Source of the DNA: Oscillospiraceae bacterium
Lineage (GTDB): Bacteria > Bacillota > Clostridia > Oscillospirales > Ruminococcaceae
NCBI GenBank assembly: GCA_017461565.1
Contig: JAFTXQ010000012.1
Span: forward strand, 1 to 60,839
Direction of reading: 5' to 3'
Length of the DNA stretch: 60,839 nucleotides
Shown piece after piece: positions 11,488 through 48,922 of this stretch; the stretch's first letter is position 1, and every line of letters starts with the position of its first letter. The notes beneath the pieces are model-generated. The model made no database searches. It was not told where the DNA came from and saw only the letters and a list, made by a program, of their open reading frames with translations. The position numbers and the translations under genes were made by a program.

Positions 11488-12181
11488 TCTTGACGGAACA
11501 CTGCTTCCGTTTAAGCAGGAGGATTTCGTAAAAGCATATTTCGGAGAGCTTTGCAAAAAGCTCGCTCCTCTCGGCTATGAGCCAAAGCACACCGTGGACT
11601 CTATCTGGGCAGGCACACGTGCCATGATAAAGAACGATGGAAGCAGGCTTAACGCCGACGTGTTCTGGGATGTGTTCCGCTCAATGAACGAAGGAATTCC
11701 TGATGCAAAGCCACTTTGCGATGAGTTTTACACAAACGAGTTCAACAGAGCACGTTCAATATTGCAGTATGAGGTGGACAGACGTCCTGTTATAGAGGCG
11801 CTGAAAAGCAAAGGACTCCGCATAGTTCTGGCAACAAACCCCATGTTTCCACGTGACGGAATGGTTTCCCGTATGGGATGGGCAGGACTAGGTCCCGATG
11901 ATTTCGAGCATGTCACAGACTACGAAAACAGCCGCTTCTGCAAGCCCGATCCCCGCTATTTCCTTGCAATAACCGAAAAGCTTGGCGTGACTCCCGAGGA
12001 GTGTGTGATGATAGGAAACAACGTCCCCGAAGATATGCAGGCAGCAAGCAAGGCAGGCTTCCGTTCCGTGTTCCTGCTGCCCGAGTTTATCGAAAATCCT
12101 CAGAACGAGGACTACTCAATGTATCCACAGGGTACTCTGGATAACGCAGTGGAATACATAATAAAGCTTCTGGAAAAGTAA
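11465..12181 (+). CDS. HAD-superfamily hydrolase
   Basis: 238 residues. The start at 11465 follows GGAAAGG and places the catalytic motif near the N-terminus: FDLDGTLLP (motif I, DxDxT), LATNPMF (motif II region), KPDPRYFLA (motif III Lys) and MIGNNVPEDMQAA (motif IV acidic residues). This is the layout of phosphoglycolate-phosphatase-like HAD enzymes with an alpha-helical cap. Its first 23 bp overlap the exonuclease gene, implying translational coupling. The substrate is unknown. Confidence 0.85.
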   Translation: MITTVMFDLDGTLLPFKQEDFVKAYFGELCKKLAPLGYEPKHTVDSIWAGTRAMIKNDGSRLNADVFWDVFRSMNEGIPDAKPLCDEFYTNEFNRARSILQYEVDRRPVIEALKSKGLRIVLATNPMFPRDGMVSRMGWAGLGPDDFEHVTDYENSRFCKPDPRYFLAITEKLGVTPEECVMIGNNVPEDMQAASKAGFRSVFLLPEFIENPQNEDYSMYPQGTLDNAVEYIIKLLEK

Positions 12182-37444: not shown

Positions 37445-37999
37445 ATGATCGGAATGATAACAGGAAGCATACAAAGCTATGTTTCACAGAATATGTCTCA
37501 GCACGATATCTCGGAGAAGCTTTACAGCCGTCCCGAAAAAAAGCTGTTCGACCCAAAACAGCGCAGCGATATCCCCCAATGGCTGGAGCAGATGAAAGAG
37601 CAAAGCGAAAGATCCGCTGACACCTCACGCATCGCCTCAATATCGGCAAAGCTTGACCAGGGCGATGATCTTACCGAGGAGGAGCTTTCTTATCTGCGTA
37701 AAAACTCGCCCGAGCTTCACAGCAAGGCGATCGCTGCCAGATATCACAAGCTCTGCATTAAAAAGAAGCTGCTCAGCTGCCGCAACAAAGAGGATGTGCG
37801 TAGGGTCGGTCTTGCCGCCGCAACCCTTACAGTGTCACAGATACGTAGCGCAAACGACTCGTCAGGTCAAGGGAGCACCAACACCTGGATAGCCGCAGCG
37901 GTCAACAAGGAATACAACAGCTTCTTTTCAACAAGGGAATACGCAAAGCTGCCCACAGAGGACGAAAAGGACAAACATCATTTTGACAAAAAGGCATAA
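37445..37999 (+). CDS. Uncharacterised cytoplasmic helical protein
   Basis: 184 residues after a strong AGGAGGT site. I do not recognise the family. It is charged and mostly helical by eye, with no signal peptide, membrane span or Cys pair motif. Features: DIPQWLEQMKEQSERSADTSRIASISAKLDQGDDLTEEELSYLRKNSPEL (an acid/base-rich helix pair), then KAIAARYHKLCIKKKLLSCRNKEDVRR and a His/Lys-rich tail. 'LT.EEL.YL..NSPEL' resembles segments in proteins often found beside phage-like or flagellar-type genes, but nothing here supports either. It is first in an operon with the GH5-like lipoprotein, 19 bp away. Confidence 0.7.
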   Translation: MIGMITGSIQSYVSQNMSQHDISEKLYSRPEKKLFDPKQRSDIPQWLEQMKEQSERSADTSRIASISAKLDQGDDLTEEELSYLRKNSPELHSKAIAARYHKLCIKKKLLSCRNKEDVRRVGLAAATLTVSQIRSANDSSGQGSTNTWIAAAVNKEYNSFFSTREYAKLPTEDEKDKHHFDKKA

Positions 38000-38018
38000 C
38001 ATACACCACGGAGGAAAA

Positions 38019-39239
38019 ATGAAAAAGCTTAAAAAAATACTTTGCACAGTTCTCGCTTCAGGTTTGCTGCTGACAGGCTGCGCACAGAACACATCATCCA
38101 CGGACAGCGGCTCCGATACCGTTTCGGACAGCTCTTCTCAGAGCAGCACCGATCAGGGCACTGACAGCAATCCGCAGGACACAGACACAAAAGAGGATAT
38201 AAACATCTACATAGAGGGCGACAAGTTCATGCTTCAGGGCGAGGAGGTCTGGCTTACCGGTATGAACGCTCCCTGGCAGGCATGGGACGATTTCGGCGGA
38301 AGCTATGACCCAGAATACTGGAGCGATGTTTTCTCAATGATGCATGAGGACGGCTTCAACTCCTGCCGTATCTGGATAAACTGCAGCGGAAATAACGGTG
38401 TAGAGATAGACGAGGACGGATATGTTTCTGGCGCCACCGCAGAGCACTGGGAGGATCTTGACTCCCTGTTTGCCCTTGCCGCCGAAAACGAGATATATGT
38501 CATGGCAACACTCATGTCGTTCGATCACTTCAAGGACAGCAACTGGAAGCACACTCGCTGGCGTGAAATGCTCAAGGATACCGAAAAGATAGACAGCTAT
38601 GTCGAAAACTACATAATCCCTTTCTGTAAGCGATATGACGACAACGACTATGTGTGGAGCATCGACCTTATCAACGAGCCTGACTGGGTATTTGAGAATG
38701 CAGAGTGCGGTCAGATATCCTGGGACAATATCGGCGACTACTTCGCACGCGCCTGTGCCGCCATCCATGAGAACACCGATGATATGCTGGTAACGATAGG
38801 CTTTGCGATAATCAAATACAACAGCCCGAAATATGAGGGCGATTTCGGATCGGACGAGTTCTTAAAGAGCCGCTACGATAACGAAAACGCATATATCGAC
38901 TTTACATCTGTGCATTACTACGACTGGCAGGCGGCATGGTTCAGCTGTCCGTTTGTAGTGAGCGCAGAGGAGTTCGGCATAGATATGACAAAACCACGTG
39001 TCATCGGCGAGTGCTCGCACACAGGCATAAAAGCGCTCAAGCAGATAAAGCCTATCGAGGACTGCTATGAGTGGGCATACAACAACGGCTGGAACGGTGT
39101 TCTTGCCTGGACGGACCGTGACCTGCTTAACGGCGACGGCGTGCCGCAGTACGCTTGTGTAAAGCTTGCGGGACAGAGAATGCAGGCCATCCTTGACGGC
39201 ACCTACATCCCCGAGGCCGAAAGCGCCGATATAGCATAA
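38019..39239 (+). CDS. GH5-like glycoside hydrolase lipoprotein
   Basis: 406 residues. The start at 38019 follows GGAGGAAAA and gives a clean lipoprotein signal, with LLTGC placing the lipidated Cys at residue 21. A Ser/Asp/Thr-rich linker runs to about residue 58. The (beta/alpha)8 catalytic domain shows WLTGMNAPWQAW, FNSCRIWINCSG, SIDLINEPDW (NEP acid/base Glu), FTSVHYYDWQ and RVIGECSH (GE nucleophile), the clan GH-A pattern of GH5/mannanase-like enzymes acting on beta-1,4 plant glycans. Exact subfamily and substrate are not determinable. It would act at the outer face of the membrane. Confidence 0.82.
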   Translation: MKKLKKILCTVLASGLLLTGCAQNTSSTDSGSDTVSDSSSQSSTDQGTDSNPQDTDTKEDINIYIEGDKFMLQGEEVWLTGMNAPWQAWDDFGGSYDPEYWSDVFSMMHEDGFNSCRIWINCSGNNGVEIDEDGYVSGATAEHWEDLDSLFALAAENEIYVMATLMSFDHFKDSNWKHTRWREMLKDTEKIDSYVENYIIPFCKRYDDNDYVWSIDLINEPDWVFENAECGQISWDNIGDYFARACAAIHENTDDMLVTIGFAIIKYNSPKYEGDFGSDEFLKSRYDNENAYIDFTSVHYYDWQAAWFSCPFVVSAEEFGIDMTKPRVIGECSHTGIKALKQIKPIEDCYEWAYNNGWNGVLAWTDRDLLNGDGVPQYACVKLAGQRMQAILDGTYIPEAESADIA

Positions 39240-42729: not shown

Positions 42730-42993
42730 ATGAAGATAAAGAACGGCTTTATGCTGCGCAAGGTCGGCGCACAGAACGTTGTTGTAGCAGTGGGCGAGGC
42801 CAGCCGCAGCTTCAACGGCATCATCCGTCTGAATGACAGCGGAAGATATCTGTGGGAGAAGCTTCAGCAGGAAACAACAGAACAGCAGCTTCTTTCCGAT
42901 ATGCTGGGCGATTACAATATAGACGAGGCTACCGCAAGAGCTGATATCGAAAGATTCGTCCAGTCGTTGAAAGGTGCGGGACTCCTTGAATGA
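42730..42993 (+). CDS. PqqD-family (RiPP recognition element-like) protein
   Basis: 87 residues, AGGAGG site. The pattern VVVAVGEASRSFNGIIRLNDSGRYLWEKLQQETTEQQLLSDMLGDYNIDEATARADIERFVQSLKGAGLL is the winged-helix PqqD fold. Members bind leader peptides for modifying enzymes (PQQ, lasso, sactipeptide pathways), yet many stand in cassettes without a known precursor. The stop overlaps the start of the peptidase gene. No precursor peptide or radical-SAM enzyme is visible nearby. Confidence 0.85.
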   Translation: MKIKNGFMLRKVGAQNVVVAVGEASRSFNGIIRLNDSGRYLWEKLQQETTEQQLLSDMLGDYNIDEATARADIERFVQSLKGAGLLE

Positions 42994-43438
42994 GCAGACG
43001 CAGTTCGCACTGAGCGAATACGACGAGACTATACGTGCCGTACTTGACAGCGGCGGAGAATTCCGCATCTATCCGAAAGGCACCAGTATGCTGCCTCTGC
43101 TGCGGCAGGGAGTGGATTCCGTGGTGCTGGAAAAGCCTAAAGGCGCACTTAAATGTGGAGACATTGCATTTTATCTGCGTGACGGCGGAGGCTATGTACT
43201 TCACCGTGTGATGAGATCCGAAAGCGGAAAATACACGATGTGCGGCGACAACCAGCTCAGATTGGAAGAAGGCATACTCGACCGTCATATCATCGGTGTG
43301 GTAACGAGATTTTACCGCAGCGACAGATGCGTGGAGCTTAGCAGCCTGAGATACAGGATATTTGTGTTCCTGTGGAGATCGTTCTTTCTGCGCAGGGTAT
43401 ATTTCAAGCTGAGAAATATTAAAAACCGTGGAAAATAG
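42986..43438 (+). CDS. S24/S26-like (signal peptidase-type) protein
   Basis: 150 residues if TTG 42986 is the start (AAAGGTG 10 nt upstream); GTG 42974 is the alternative. FRIYPKGTSMLPLLRQG carries the candidate nucleophile Ser in the S26 signature, and VLHRVM supplies a His where bacterial signal peptidase I has Lys, as in the Ser-His ER/archaeal-type enzymes. CGDNQLRLEEG matches the 'GDN' box. A C-terminal hydrophobic/basic segment (YRIFVFLWRSFFLRRVYFKL) may anchor it. Overlapping the PqqD gene by 8 bp suggests a joint role, perhaps cleaving a peptide that PqqD presents. Confidence 0.75.
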   Translation: MNEQTQFALSEYDETIRAVLDSGGEFRIYPKGTSMLPLLRQGVDSVVLEKPKGALKCGDIAFYLRDGGGYVLHRVMRSESGKYTMCGDNQLRLEEGILDRHIIGVVTRFYRSDRCVELSSLRYRIFVFLWRSFFLRRVYFKLRNIKNRGK

Positions 43439-43454
43439 GAGTCAGGGTGGAACT

Positions 43455-44552
43455 ATGACAGAACTCAACACAGAAAAATATCTCATCTCGCTGCTGAAAA
43501 GCACGATCAACAACGAAGCAGCGCCCCCTCTCCCCGAGGATATGGACTGCACCGCACTGCTTAAGCTTGCGAAGCATCACAGCGTGGCAAATACAGCGTA
43601 CTATGCGCTGGAGCAGCTTGATGTACTGTCAACTGAGCAGAAAAAAGAATGGTCGCAGCTGAGGGATATGGAAATAATGCGTGACATCCACCAGCAGACC
43701 GAATATGATATACTATGCGAAGCGTTTTCGCAGGAGAAGATACGCTTTCTTCCCCTCAAGGGAATACTCATAAAATCACTTTATCCGCAGAGCGACTTCC
43801 GCACGATGTCTGATATCGACCTGCTTATAGATGAAGCGAACGCCGAAAAGGTAAAGGAAGTTATGCTCTCTCTTGGATATGAGGTCGACAGCATGGAGTT
43901 CGGCGTACATGACGTATATCACAAGAAGCCTGCGGTCAGCATTGAGGTGCATCGAGAGCTTTTCGGCGACGAGGGACAGGAGTTTGCTCCGCTATTCAGC
44001 GATCCGTGGAGCAAATGCGAAAAACGCTCCGATACGCTGTACGAGTTCACACAGCAGTATTTCTTCGCATATCTGCTGGCGCACGGAATAAAACACTATC
44101 AGCAGGGCGGCACAGGTATACGCACCTTTATGGATATAGAAATATACCGCAGGCATTTCGGGCAGCAGCTGGATATGGATAAGCTGTACGATATGTTTGA
44201 AAAAGCAGGTCAGCGAAAGCTGTGCGAGGACTTTATAAGGCTCTCTGAGCTTTGGTTCGGTGCTGCGGAGGACGACGGCACACTTGATAACATAGCACGC
44301 TACATAATAAGCGGCGGCACCTACGGCACCTTTGAAAATCAGGTGCAGTATGAGCTTCAGAGCAAGAGCAAGGGACAGTATATAATGTCAAAGCTGTTTC
44401 CGAATCTTCAGCACATGAAGCAGCAGTATCCCGTGCTAAAAAAAGCACCCGTGCTGCTCCCTGTGATGTGGCTGGTAAGGCTCGTCACAAAGCCGTTCAT
44501 CAACCGAAAGGAAAATGCCGAGAAGCTTAAAGCACTGAGCAAAAACAAATAA
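43455..44552 (+). CDS. Nucleotidyltransferase-family protein (NTP_transf_5-like)
   Basis: 365 residues. The start at 43455 follows AGGGTGG. The nucleotidyltransferase core is FLPLKGILIKSLYPQSDFRTMSDIDLLIDEANAEKV, with the DxD pair in MSDIDLLI, then SIEVHRELFG with the third acidic residue region. A helical C-terminal half contains YFFAYLLAHGIKHYQQGGTGIRTFMDIEIY and a basic membrane-proximal end (LLPVMWLVRLVTKPF). This family is recurrent next to PqqD-like and S26-like genes in Clostridia; the biochemical reaction is not known. Confidence 0.82.
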   Translation: MTELNTEKYLISLLKSTINNEAAPPLPEDMDCTALLKLAKHHSVANTAYYALEQLDVLSTEQKKEWSQLRDMEIMRDIHQQTEYDILCEAFSQEKIRFLPLKGILIKSLYPQSDFRTMSDIDLLIDEANAEKVKEVMLSLGYEVDSMEFGVHDVYHKKPAVSIEVHRELFGDEGQEFAPLFSDPWSKCEKRSDTLYEFTQQYFFAYLLAHGIKHYQQGGTGIRTFMDIEIYRRHFGQQLDMDKLYDMFEKAGQRKLCEDFIRLSELWFGAAEDDGTLDNIARYIISGGTYGTFENQVQYELQSKSKGQYIMSKLFPNLQHMKQQYPVLKKAPVLLPVMWLVRLVTKPFINRKENAEKLKALSKNK

Positions 44553-44601: not shown

Positions 44602-47600
44602 TTATACAGGAGTTATCTCAACGCTGTCAACAACACGTTCAAAAATATATCTGTCTACACCAAGATCTGCAATAAAATGCATTGAGATGTTGTATCCATT
44701 CCTGCTTACAATGTACCTGTAAGCGTCATATCTGCCGTCAGGGGAGTATTTCTCGGGTAAGGAGTCGTATATCATGAATGAAAAGCCATCCGTCTCCGTG
44801 TAGGGTATGACGGTCTGATGTACGGTCTGTCTTGCACCACTGTCAGAATAGCTGTCAAACTCAGGCTGCTCATCCTTAGGATACGGCGAAGCTATCTCAA
44901 ACAGCTTATTTCCATCAAGCTGTGCTATGTTGCTTTCATAATCCCACTCGGCAGGAAGCGAAAACGAAACCTTTATCTTCTGTGCGTTTACACCATAGGT
45001 AAAGCTGTCATTTTCCTCATCGTAGTGACACAGAGGAGCAACAAAAGAATAGCTCTGCATCTCAACATCCTGAACAGGCGACATCTTTATGTTCTTGAGC
45101 AGACCCTCAAAGCTCTCCCTGCTTATACCCATATCCGAAGCAAAGAACACGTTGAGGTTATATCCGCCGCTGCTTATTACGTAATTATAATCATCTATGC
45201 TTTTATCGGCGGCGTATTCAGACGGAACGGATGTGTGGATATAATACAGATAAGGGTCATCGGAGCTACCATACCGTTCCTCATGTACTGTTATATCATA
45301 ACCGTGTGCAGCGTCTGTTTTAAACTGCCCGGGATCAAAGCCCTCAGCCTCGGGATAAGGAACTCCAATGCCGAATATACGCTCATTTGCCAGAAACGCA
45401 TTCTGGTGTTCAAGCACCCATCCCTCGGGCAGCTCAAAGCTTATATTCACCTGCGGATGTCCCGCTGTATCAGGCGTAAACCCGACATTTGCATCGACAT
45501 AGTGGTATTCATCCAGCGCAAGCGAATGATGTATCAGTCTTGTGCTCTCGTTTATGCTGTCGATAACTTTACCGCTGAGGACATCACTCACATACTCTAG
45601 TATCTTGTCACGGTCAAGTCCGTGCTCCGTGAAGCTTTCAAAGGTGTGCACTGCGACGGAGCTGTACCCCTGAGTAAGACGTATCTTTTCCTTGAGATAC
45701 TGCTCCTGCGTTATCTCCGAATGTTCCCCTGCGTTTATGTCGGTATTTACCGCCCAGAACATCTCCTTTCCGTCCTGCTCTGAGTGTATCAGCGAAGCAA
45801 GCCACTGCATTTCGCCACCGCTTATATCATAATATGTCTCCTCGATACGTGCAGTATCAGCGCATGTGCAGACAAGCAGCAGCCCGCTACCGTTCTGCAT
45901 AAGCTCCACACTGTCCGCTGTCACATGATCAAGCGCATTAAAACGTCCGTTTCTGATAAGATATGTCACAACCCCGTTGGAATCATGCCTGGGCTGCGCA
46001 AGGAACAGCACACGTCCGCCATCGATCTCGGTGCAATAGCCGCTTATCTCTTCCTGTGAACCGATCGTATCCCATTTTTCAAGGTAATCATCGGTCACAC
46101 GCTCTGCTATGCCCTCCTCCGAGGGAGTTATATTCACCGATCTCGCTATTGCAGCGTGGAGCTCGTGGTCAAGCTCCTCCTTATTTATAGACATCTGGAT
46201 ATATACGCAAAGCTCGTCATTATGGGCGAGAATTCCGTACCCGCCCATTCCCTCGAAGCGCTCATCCGTCAATATCTGACAGGTTGCGGAACAGGTTCCG
46301 TCTTTTTGCTTCACGACATTGAAATTATAGTCCCATGTTACCATTGAACCCATCATGAGCTGATTGTAAACCATACGATAATAGTTATCTATCTCATGTG
46401 TCATACCCTCGTATATCTCGTAGGTATTGAAATCAACGCTTCCTATGGTCTCTCCATTTTCATCCTTCAGAGTGAGAGGCGAGAATACAGCCGTTTTTTC
46501 CTCGGGCTCTTCAAAATGCCAGCCCTCGGGCAGGGATATATCCAGCTTGAACGGTGCCGCAGAGAATACGATGCTGTGATTATACTCATTCACCATATCG
46601 TAATAGGCAGGGAATGTCACGGAGGTCGGAACAAGCCCGAAGTGCTCGTCGTATGGCACTAGCTGAAGCTCGGGACATATAGTAAGCGCCTGATTACGAT
46701 AAGCCATCATCGCATCCTCGTAGCTGACATTACCGAGAATGTATTCCTCAAACGCACTGTTGAACGCAGCGAAAAGACGGTTGCGCTCACGGTATCTTTC
46801 CGTATCGGGAATGTCTGTCTTTATGCTCTTCGCACATTCCGAGTACACGCCAAACGGATTCTGACCACCAAAGTGCTCCGCACTGTGATCGGATACGGCT
46901 AGCTCATCCATCGCCGCAATATTATTTGCAAGCACACGATACTCCGGATCGGTGGATATTGCCTGCGCTGTTTCCTCGTTGCAGCATAACGCACGCAGGA
47001 ATTCCGTCACCGCCTCAGGGCTGTTTGTGTCCCTTGCCGCTGCCAGCCACTGTCCAATCTCACTGTAACCACTCTGAGGTCCCATGCACACGGCAAGATC
47101 GCCTGTGTCACCCATCTCGCGCGGCACGCTCCACTCAGCAACAGTGGAAACCGCAAAGCCGCCGAACACCTTATTATCTTTAAGATCATCAGCCCATTCG
47201 CTCGTCCACATACCGTTCCCTGTGAAACAGTCGTTATCCTGCAGCAGTTTGCATATCTCAGCCCATTTCACCGCACCATCGTCAGCACAAATCATATCAT
47301 CAGAGTTTATCCAGCCGTCGGTGCAGAACAGCTCATAAAGCTGATCGCAATCAGATATCATACAGTAGCCCTGATCCTTTAGCTTAAGCGCTGCATCGGT
47401 GAAGCTGTCCCAATCGGAAAGAAGCTTCTGTATCTCCTCGGGTTCGGAAGTACCGAATACCTGCTCTGCAATAGAACGCCTATAATAGAACACATACGGT
47501 GCCGCTTCCCATGCGAGAGCATAAAGCTCGCCATTTTCACCGCCTGCCTGCTTCAGAGTGTAATCATACATCTGCAAGGTATCCTCGGAAGTAAGCCCGA

Positions 47601-48258
47601 TACTATACAGATCTTCTGTATATCCGCTGCCCATAAGGTCGTAGAGCACAGATTCGTCATTTACGTAGATAAGATCGGCACGCTCCTCGGGCGGAAGCAA
47701 AGTATCGTCGATATAGTCCCTTACCCCAATCCCGTAATCACCCTCTACATTCGGGCCATACAGCGGAACCCATCTTATAGTGATGTCACCCAATGTGCCT
47801 GTGTTGTCGCCGTTATCGGTATAATCGGGACAGAACCGCTCCACTACATCCACTATCGGCTGAGCCATTTCATAAACAAGGATGTTCACCGTTTTATCCT
47901 CGGGAGCGACAGGCTCGGCGATATCAACAGTCTCAGATGTTTCTGCTGTGTGCAATGTCTCTTCCGTAGCACCGGAAGCAGGGTCTAATGGACTTTGACC
48001 CAAAAGCGAAACGCCTCCCCACACGCCAAGTCCCACCACAGCCGCAGCAGCACTGATACCGACGGCAGTCTTCCACGGACTACGCTTTTTCGGCTCTATT
48101 ATCATCACATTGGATGCGTGCTGATCCTCATAATCATCAGAATTCAACGCATCCTGCTTATCCTCATAGCAGGAAACGAGCTTTTTCTTTGCCTCCGCCT
48201 TGAATCCGTCGGAAAGCTTTATCTTGCCGTATGCGGCTTTGAATTCATGCTTATTCAT
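44602..48258 (-). CDS. Membrane anti-sigma-like protein with extracellular ABC-type solute-binding domain
   Basis: 1,218 residues. Residues 1-61 are cytoplasmic and charged (FKAAYGKIKLSDGFKAEAKKKLV...), as in ECF anti-sigma factors of Ruminococcus-type genomes. A single membrane span (about 62-86; WKTAVGISAAAAVVGLGVWGGVSLLG) has the N-in topology of RsgI-like proteins. Residues about 123-560 match family-1 extracellular solute-binding proteins (NILVYEMAQPIVDVVERF, DLIYVNDES, GELYALAWEAAPYVFYYRRSIAEQVFG, DWDSFTDAALKLKDQGY, VTEFLRALC). The rest has a propeller-like segment and three copies of a domain of about 140 residues starting SFxLPExW and ending DLGV..FE..V.SV.I.PV. The start codon overlaps the sigma-factor stop (ATGA). 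Ligand binding is probably transmitted inward to free the sigma factor (inference). Confidence 0.88.
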   Translation of the reverse strand: MNKHEFKAAYGKIKLSDGFKAEAKKKLVSCYEDKQDALNSDDYEDQHASNVMIIEPKKRSPWKTAVGISAAAAVVGLGVWGGVSLLGQSPLDPASGATEETLHTAETSETVDIAEPVAPEDKTVNILVYEMAQPIVDVVERFCPDYTDNGDNTGTLGDITIRWVPLYGPNVEGDYGIGVRDYIDDTLLPPEERADLIYVNDESVLYDLMGSGYTEDLYSIGLTSEDTLQMYDYTLKQAGGENGELYALAWEAAPYVFYYRRSIAEQVFGTSEPEEIQKLLSDWDSFTDAALKLKDQGYCMISDCDQLYELFCTDGWINSDDMICADDGAVKWAEICKLLQDNDCFTGNGMWTSEWADDLKDNKVFGGFAVSTVAEWSVPREMGDTGDLAVCMGPQSGYSEIGQWLAAARDTNSPEAVTEFLRALCCNEETAQAISTDPEYRVLANNIAAMDELAVSDHSAEHFGGQNPFGVYSECAKSIKTDIPDTERYRERNRLFAAFNSAFEEYILGNVSYEDAMMAYRNQALTICPELQLVPYDEHFGLVPTSVTFPAYYDMVNEYNHSIVFSAAPFKLDISLPEGWHFEEPEEKTAVFSPLTLKDENGETIGSVDFNTYEIYEGMTHEIDNYYRMVYNQLMMGSMVTWDYNFNVVKQKDGTCSATCQILTDERFEGMGGYGILAHNDELCVYIQMSINKEELDHELHAAIARSVNITPSEEGIAERVTDDYLEKWDTIGSQEEISGYCTEIDGGRVLFLAQPRHDSNGVVTYLIRNGRFNALDHVTADSVELMQNGSGLLLVCTCADTARIEETYYDISGGEMQWLASLIHSEQDGKEMFWAVNTDINAGEHSEITQEQYLKEKIRLTQGYSSVAVHTFESFTEHGLDRDKILEYVSDVLSGKVIDSINESTRLIHHSLALDEYHYVDANVGFTPDTAGHPQVNISFELPEGWVLEHQNAFLANERIFGIGVPYPEAEGFDPGQFKTDAAHGYDITVHEERYGSSDDPYLYYIHTSVPSEYAADKSIDDYNYVISSGGYNLNVFFASDMGISRESFEGLLKNIKMSPVQDVEMQSYSFVAPLCHYDEENDSFTYGVNAQKIKVSFSLPAEWDYESNIAQLDGNKLFEIASPYPKDEQPEFDSYSDSGARQTVHQTVIPYTETDGFSFMIYDSLPEKYSPDGRYDAYRYIVSRNGYNISMHFIADLGVDRYIFERVVDSVEITPV

Positions 48259-48743
48259 ATCGCTTCCCCCTCCAGATCTATCTTCAGTGCGTTCCTGCCA
48301 CGCTGCAGACGCTTGTAAACAGTGTTCTCGCTGATACCTAGAACAGACGCTATCTGCGCCGCCGACATATCCTCATAATAATACATATACACCGTGGTCC
48401 TGAGTTTTTTAGGCAGGCGCATCACCATATCCAGAAGCTCGTGCTCCGCCTCGTTCAGTCCACCGCTCAGAGTACCCGAGAGCATCTCATCAAGTGGCTG
48501 AGTCCGCCTCACCCGTGCCGACCTCACCACATTGATAGACTTGTTTTCGGCGGTGCGTATCAGCCACGCTTTGATATGTCCGTCATCGTTGAAGCTGTCC
48601 TGCTTCATAAGTGCCATGAACGTATCCATTACGATATCCTGCGCCTCTTCGCAGTTGCGCACGATGTTGAGCGATATCCTGTACACCATATCGGAGTATC
48701 TGTCAAAAAGCTCCTCTATGCTGTCCTTTGAGATAACGATCAT
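48255..48743 (-). CDS. ECF-type RNA polymerase sigma factor
   Basis: 162 residues. The start at 48743 follows AAAGGGG. Region 2: LFDRYSDMVYRISLNIVRNCEEAQDIVMDTFMALM...HIKAWLIRTAENKSINVVRSARVRR, the core-binding and -10-recognition part. Region 4: LPKKLRTTVYMYYYEDMSAAQIASVLGISENTVYKRLQRGRNALK, the -35 helix-turn-helix. There is no region 3, so it is ECF/SigW-like. It is translationally coupled (ATGA) to the giant anti-sigma-like gene, the standard arrangement for a cognate pair. Target promoters are not obvious in the window. Confidence 0.95.
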   Translation of the reverse strand: MIVISKDSIEELFDRYSDMVYRISLNIVRNCEEAQDIVMDTFMALMKQDSFNDDGHIKAWLIRTAENKSINVVRSARVRRTQPLDEMLSGTLSGGLNEAEHELLDMVMRLPKKLRTTVYMYYYEDMSAAQIASVLGISENTVYKRLQRGRNALKIDLEGEAI

Positions 48744-48922
48744 ATAACCAACCCCTTTCCCCAAGGATAATTGCCTTGTGTATAATATAACATATCAGCA
48801 GTGAATAATCTGACTTTTTTCTGCCATAAAATTTTCTTGTACAGTATACACAAAAATGCAGCCGCTTTTTAGTATATACTCCGCAAATCAATAAATTATT
48901 ATCGAAAAACAATAAAAATCTA
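48744..48922. other. AT-rich region upstream of ECF sigma gene
   Basis: No clear housekeeping promoter for the sigma gene. It contains CAAGG-N7-CCTTG next to the ribosome site, the palindrome AGTATATACT (48871-48880) and a related AGTATACAC (48843-48851), possible autoregulatory sites. Confidence 0.35.

Follow-up and report, generated by a model that had tools for sequence, protein, structure and literature searches.

How does a bacterial transcriptional switch come by a new input? The question is raised by two genes in the 60,839-nucleotide window that we analysed, which is the entire contig JAFTXQ010000012.1 (here C8) of an Oscillospiraceae bacterium (assembly GCA_017461565.1, 2.19 Mb in 19 contigs; G, C and L below are our handles for genomes, contigs and loci). 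A small sigma factor gene of the extracytoplasmic function (ECF) type overlaps by ATGA with the gene of a giant membrane protein, and this protein carries a solute-binding domain (SBP) of the sort that serves ATP-binding cassette (ABC) transporters. On balance we favor, with modest confidence, the view that the two are an ECF sigma/transmembrane anti-sigma pair in which the inserted SBP, its pocket remodelled, serves as a sensor close to the membrane. The parts on which the argument turns are these:

48255..48743, minus strand: ECF sigma factor gene, 162 amino acids, regions 2 and 4
44602..48258, minus strand: partner gene, predicted membrane anti-sigma factor, 1218 amino acids, ATGA overlap with the sigma gene
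48073..48258, minus strand: cytoplasmic head of the partner, predicted sigma-binding part, residues 1-62
47995..48069, minus strand: single membrane span, residues 64-88, sole hydrophobic segment, positive side inside
46663..47907, minus strand: solute-binding domain, residues 118-532

The 162-residue product of the sigma gene is an ECF sigma factor, short and made of regions 2 and 4 only, with matches above cut-off to Sigma70_r2 (E=1.8e-11) and Sigma70_r4_2 (E=1.6e-16) in Pfam and to the sigma70-ECF family TIGR02937 (E=2.6e-25). The partner is a single uninterrupted reading frame across 3.6 kb. Because hydropathy and charge predictions give it one span, with a positive flank before residues 64-88 and a negative one after, we predict a protein with its N-terminus inside, a head of about 62 residues in the cytoplasm and some 1130 residues outside the cell. 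In the head, helices are predicted at residues 3-10 and 17-39 (and 41-47) with modest confidence (AlphaFold2 secondary structure). Beyond the span, profile, model and fold matches recover the two-lobe family-1 SBP fold over the full length of the domain with high confidence. The earlier note, made from the sequence alone, had described an ECF sigma factor with a giant transmembrane anti-sigma-like partner, an ATGA overlap and an SBP ectodomain, and domains, overlap, span and fold all bear this out; the ligand cleft, whose absence it had named as a refutation, lies in an intact two-lobe fold with a remodelled pocket. The profile search that it had suggested was of mixed yield: residues 1-545 reach SBP_bac_1 at E=0.0075, below cut-off, and the anti-sigma N-terminal families gave no credible match. 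Of 50 members of this SBP family that were scanned, two reach SBP_bac_1 (E up to 0.1) and one reaches SBP_bac_8, and Pfam and NCBIfam scans of the full partner were without useful match.

A transport origin of the domain is supported by the company that its relatives keep. The sole other match in the window genome is a 538-residue lipoprotein-like SBP (L012:4611-6227), 34-36% identical and followed by two permeases. Among the best 80 of 134 related loci in our named genome collection, some of which are cut by contig ends, 69 include one or more homologues of the two permeases just mentioned; a sigma gene adjoins the SBP in none of these 80, the single sigma factor (L192) lying more than 4 kb away on the other strand. 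The window domain itself does not pass as part of an ABC transporter unit: it is internal, behind a span, it has neither lipoprotein nor signal-peptide form, and C8 holds no permease match (PF00528), in agreement with the earlier note, which had seen no ABC permease nearby. That note had gone further and proposed a domain repurposed from transport to sensing. The transport derivation stands; sugar sensing carried over unchanged is unlikely, because two conserved pocket tryptophans are absent.

A survey of genomes for ECF genes with such partners, another of the checks once proposed, was run, and the pair turned out to have close relatives. Searched with a sigma profile, 43 congeneric genomes yield 11 loci that score above 187 bits, spread over 8 of the genomes (next match, 131 bits), and a head profile matches the same 11 places, directly downstream of the sigma gene at 11/11. 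The profiles themselves drew on these very loci (eight sigmas and nine heads, out of 11 each); G020 C82 and G021 C5 count as independent cases of pairing because they entered neither profile. The head profile also weakly matches other ECF partners, and one of them (G007 C34) has 49 bits, a score equal to the lowest among the eleven. When 396 genomes were drawn from the family, sigma matches beyond the genus went no higher than 145 bits, so that the sigma/head set is confined to the genus in the present survey. Giant ECF partners are common in the window genome (G000), since four more ECF genes are followed there by single-span partners, of 1544 (C10, L209), 1351 (C6, L210), 789 (C11, L211) and 691 residues (C17, L207), with no convincing Pfam family in any of the four. 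The pair is thus not an isolated oddity, given the 11 sister loci with variable ectodomains and the four further pairs, and the earlier idea of an undescribed signalling system has to give way to that of one member of a set, with a known parallel in Rsi24C-GH5 (see below). In one sister locus the sigma gene (G007, L042:1369-1857) has an in-frame TAG at codon 24 while the partner frame is open, through either decay or sequencing error.

What distinguishes the window partner within this set is the SBP. The eleven partners run from 557 (G014) to 1387 residues, and their ectodomains differ while sigma and head are conserved; SBP profiles were negative in all 18 other ECF partners scanned (10 sisters, that of G014 being cut, and 8 further ones). 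The remainder of the ectodomain can be divided as follows:

46120..46638, minus strand: ectodomain module A, residues 541-713, with relatives in the sister partners of G007, G009 and G006 and in a 244-residue frame in G020
45559..46053, minus strand: middle module, residues 736-900, matching residues 318-487 of the G009 partner
45073..45558, minus strand: module B, residues 901-1062, tandem relative of C, matching the G005 partner
44605..45072, minus strand: module C, residues 1063-1218, tandem relative of B

Modules A, middle and B are common to sister partners that have no SBP. In the G009 partner the head match stops at residue 121 and the match to window residues 534 onwards starts at 117; its head runs straight into module A, whereas residues 116-532 separate the two in the window protein. 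In a tree of sigma plus head, G005 stands beside the window (support 84/92) within a group with G006, G007 and G009 (94/93), none of which has an SBP; the sigma-only tree did not resolve the closest sister of the window sigma. Because the window partner alone has the SBP, placed between the linker and the next module, the domain looks like a lineage-specific insertion that entered in one piece, after the membrane-proximal linker and ahead of module A, and these alignments are most simply explained by a single insertion in the lineage of the window. As for the modules themselves, single-sequence structure prediction of residues 541-1218 gave a mean pLDDT of 31 and no usable fold, and profile searches of the PDB with modules A and B/C were without match.

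The same SBP family is found on other proteins that are not transporters; in the wider bacterial family such fusions were judged from frame lengths among the matches listed, with the genome G422 examined further. An 812-residue protein (L118:861-3299, same frame as L055:861-3299) consists of zinc ribbon, span, TPR and SBP, and its SBP is nested among transporter SBPs of the genus in the tree. Further fusions are to Big_2 domains (L054/L125) and, by reading, to FN3-like repeats (L053). In G422, a 942-residue protein (L265:8922-11750, plus strand) has a zinc ribbon (by eye), a Ser/Thr kinase domain (Pkinase, E=2e-31), one hydrophobic stretch (by eye) and then an SBP with 81% identity to that of an ABC operon lying some 6 kb upstream. 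This gene is followed at 11804 by a second frame that looks zinc ribbon/kinase-like by eye. Since the same family lies outside the span of a Ser/Thr kinase, it can become a signalling ectodomain. The tryptophans absent from the window SBP are kept in the zinc-ribbon and Big_2 fusions and, by reading, in the kinase fusion. In a quick SBP tree the label "fused" changes four times, at least three of them on well-supported branches, so that capture of this family by non-transport proteins has probably been repeated. The placement of the window SBP is unsure (branch length 3.57, with long-branch joining to L053 flagged), and for this reason we limit the claim of captures separate from that of the window to the kinase and zinc-ribbon fusions. 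A broader proposition, which we hold tentatively and at rather less than even confidence, is that a sugar-uptake SBP family of Clostridia has repeatedly been detached from its transporter to become a receptor on an ECF anti-sigma factor, a Ser/Thr kinase and a zinc-ribbon/TPR protein, the pocket on the anti-sigma factor being re-tuned to a new ligand and opening a one-protein route from solute to transcription, free of transporter and two-component system.

A promoter-like element stands in front of the sigma gene:

48783..48815, minus strand: AGTCAG-N17-TGTTAT

Seven of the 11 sigma genes have TGTCAG-N17-YGT upstream, against a mean of 0.013 genes and a maximum of 1 in 2000 dinucleotide shuffles, a figure that is not an independent test because the motif had been derived from those very sequences. 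With the same spacing and a variant hexamer in the window (AGTCAG) and in G021b (AGGCAG), the element is present in 9/11, and it is absent from G020b and G021c. When the exact hexamer was allowed spacings of 12 to 23, spacing 17 occurred in seven genes, and 13 and 19 in one each; spacings of 16-17 are usual for ECF promoters. The conserved element is presumably the one used by the window sigma. In the 8 genomes, a loose pattern gave 38 matches versus 23 for the reversed control. Seven of the 38 are the sigma's own promoter; of the rest, several come back almost letter for letter in at least three genomes, which looks like shared coding sequence. A stricter pattern (two mismatches) gave 16 matches versus 10, six of them the sigma's own promoter, with two further matches in the window genome (C4:8936 and C10:229743; control, 0).

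From these elements a mechanism can be proposed. The short N-terminal head would tether the sigma factor to the cytoplasmic side of the membrane, and the ectodomain would pick up a signal from outside the cell, probably a solute, small or oligomeric, of carbohydrate-like or related nature. In the window's lineage a whole ABC family-1 SBP would have been inserted between the membrane-proximal linker and module A, where it might work as a sensor with a remodelled pocket; a membrane-proximal insert suits the control of linker cleavage. By analogy with known systems, opening or closing of the lobes upon ligand binding, or contact with modules A-C, could make the linker accessible to a site-1 protease; an intramembrane M50 protease would then free the head and the sigma factor, and the latter would transcribe its own operon from TGTCAG-N17-YGT, plus other targets. 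M50 proteases are general in bacteria. Their gene is present in the window genome and in all 14 control genomes too, so its presence does no more than permit the mechanism.

Several observations weigh against this reading. No credible Pfam family is found in the window head or in any of the 9 heads, so that known anti-sigma families are not matched; the scans of 8 genomes established no regulon beyond the operon; the placement of the nearest sister, G005, is only moderately supported, and the 557-residue G014 partner is cut by a contig end. The SBP fusion is seen in one genome only, which also makes selection on it unmeasurable. The remaining points concern the pocket. The 49 other rows define 153 columns with a conservation of 85% or more. 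The window SBP departs from these at 80, whereas the other rows, each left out in turn, change at a median of 4 (worst, 70). The rows were collected by conserved peptide patterns, so that the set favors conserved members, the 49 include two fusions (L118, L125), and divergence is not unique to the window: six other rows differ at 43-70 of these columns. In CebE, the reported contacts with cellotriose include W303 (stacking), W331, G333, S334, D173, E125 and F282 (PMC10714786). Mapped by profile sequence alignment, not coordinates (residue number minus 28 being our own reckoning), W303 falls on T372 (W in 48/49 other rows) and W331 on S399 (W in 47/49), and the glycine after W331 on E400 (G in 49/49), with one residue inserted. 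The alignment near 372 may slip by one, and still no W is matched. F282 corresponds to W351 (kept), E125 to D201 and D173 to E251 (Q in 48/49). A CebE-type sugar pocket, with stacking W303 and the Trp-Gly-Gly of W331-G333, is therefore not found in the window SBP. With 80/153 conserved positions changed and two ligand-contacting tryptophans gone, the pocket is, as far as alignment can tell, remodelled, altered rather than erased, and would suit another ligand or none; the same departures mean that the domain may no longer bind solute.

This last possibility leads to the rival that we take most seriously, although we consider it unlikely: that sigma and partner are a working switch in which the SBP rides along passively as a spacer or wall-contact element, and modules A-C, which may sense in its place, receive the signal. 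The presence of modules A, middle and B in sisters without SBP fits this, as do the lost tryptophans and the excess of changed columns. Against it stand the fold, which stays intact over the full length, and the pocket equivalents W351, D201 and E251, which are kept or conservatively changed, and the kinase fusion, a signalling protein by its domains, retains the pocket motifs (by reading). A more improbable option is that the partner is a surface protein co-transcribed with the sigma gene, or a sigma activator, and no anti-sigma factor at all. The head without a recognisable anti-sigma family would allow it; yet gene adjacency with overlap and conserved pairing, as in transmembrane ECF anti-sigma factors, are both found here (ATGA; 11/11), the overlap or near-overlap, the conserved head and the one-to-one pairing persisting despite differing ectodomains, and several other ECF genes of the window genome also precede genes of short-headed single-span proteins. 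Finally, the SBP stretch could be an assembly chimera, as its occurrence in a single genome and an assembly in 19 contigs might suggest, but we give this hardly any credence. The 3.6 kb frame is unbroken, GC content is similar across the junctions (head 0.500, SBP 0.506, module A 0.473) and the SBP is strongly diverged, with its only other match in the genome at 34-36% identity; a join of two present-day genes of the window genome would not produce such a picture.

The preferred reading, a sigma/anti-sigma pair with the SBP as sensor, has to be compared with systems already described. Sigma24C is ECF-like, as its name sigma24 suggests, and the sigma24C/Rsi24C-GH5 pair is the closest parallel. 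The Clostridium thermocellum protein Rsi24C-GH5 is reported to have a GH5 domain that has lost catalysis, interacts with crystalline cellulose and is a putative biosensor (PMC3526467, PMC3990059). Like the predicted anti-sigma factor of the window, it is a membrane protein with a carbohydrate-active ectodomain turned to sensing; its ectodomain is a dead enzyme, whereas ours is a transport SBP. SigI/RsgI of cellulolytic clostridia follow a similar logic. SigI is described as having region 2, with region 4 replaced by another part, whereas the window sigma has both, and Pfam finds in the partner neither RsgI_N (E up to 1) nor a carbohydrate-binding module, and no RsgI_N in the 9 heads either (E up to 5). 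We rejected RsgI/SigI membership on these grounds (region 4 present, RsgI_N absent), and the earlier note was right to set the partner apart from RsgI. For Bacillus subtilis SigV/RsiV, published reports describe ligand binding to a transmembrane anti-sigma factor, intramembrane proteolysis and release of the ECF sigma factor (PMC4183432, PMC5014341, PMC6066255); there the ligand of RsiV is a protein, lysozyme. Unlike CebE and other family-1 (cluster B) SBPs, the window domain is not a free lipoprotein, has no permease on its contig and, against CebE, lacks the stacking and ligand-contacting tryptophans. The G422 fusion has the same SBP family behind the single hydrophobic stretch (by eye) of a signalling protein; its output is a kinase and its pocket motifs are kept, unlike those of the window. 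Searches of the open-licence literature, partly judged from listings, turned up no description of an ECF anti-sigma factor with an SBP. The SBP on an ECF anti-sigma-like partner is the new element, the ECF/transmembrane anti-sigma pairing itself being known.

If this reading is true, ECF switches can gain inputs by exchange of ectodomains while sigma, head and (mostly) promoter stay, and the input was gained here by insertion of an entire transport receptor. The 11 sister loci, differing mainly in their ectodomain, form a natural domain-swap series, and with the SBP comes a defined pocket against which ligands can be screened, something that Pfam does not reveal in the other giant partners. 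That the family is also fused to a Ser/Thr kinase suggests that these bacteria draw sensor domains from transport SBPs more widely.

Two features of the surroundings deserve mention. At 37983-39239 (plus strand) lies the gene of a 418-residue lipoprotein, GH5-type mannanase-like by eye, for which Pfam gives nothing at E up to 1e-5. At 42730-44552 (plus strand), in convergent orientation to the sigma operon, a PqqD-like protein, an unassigned 154-residue protein and an NTP_transf_5 nucleotidyltransferase are encoded in a row that, by eye, resembles a peptide-modification cassette.

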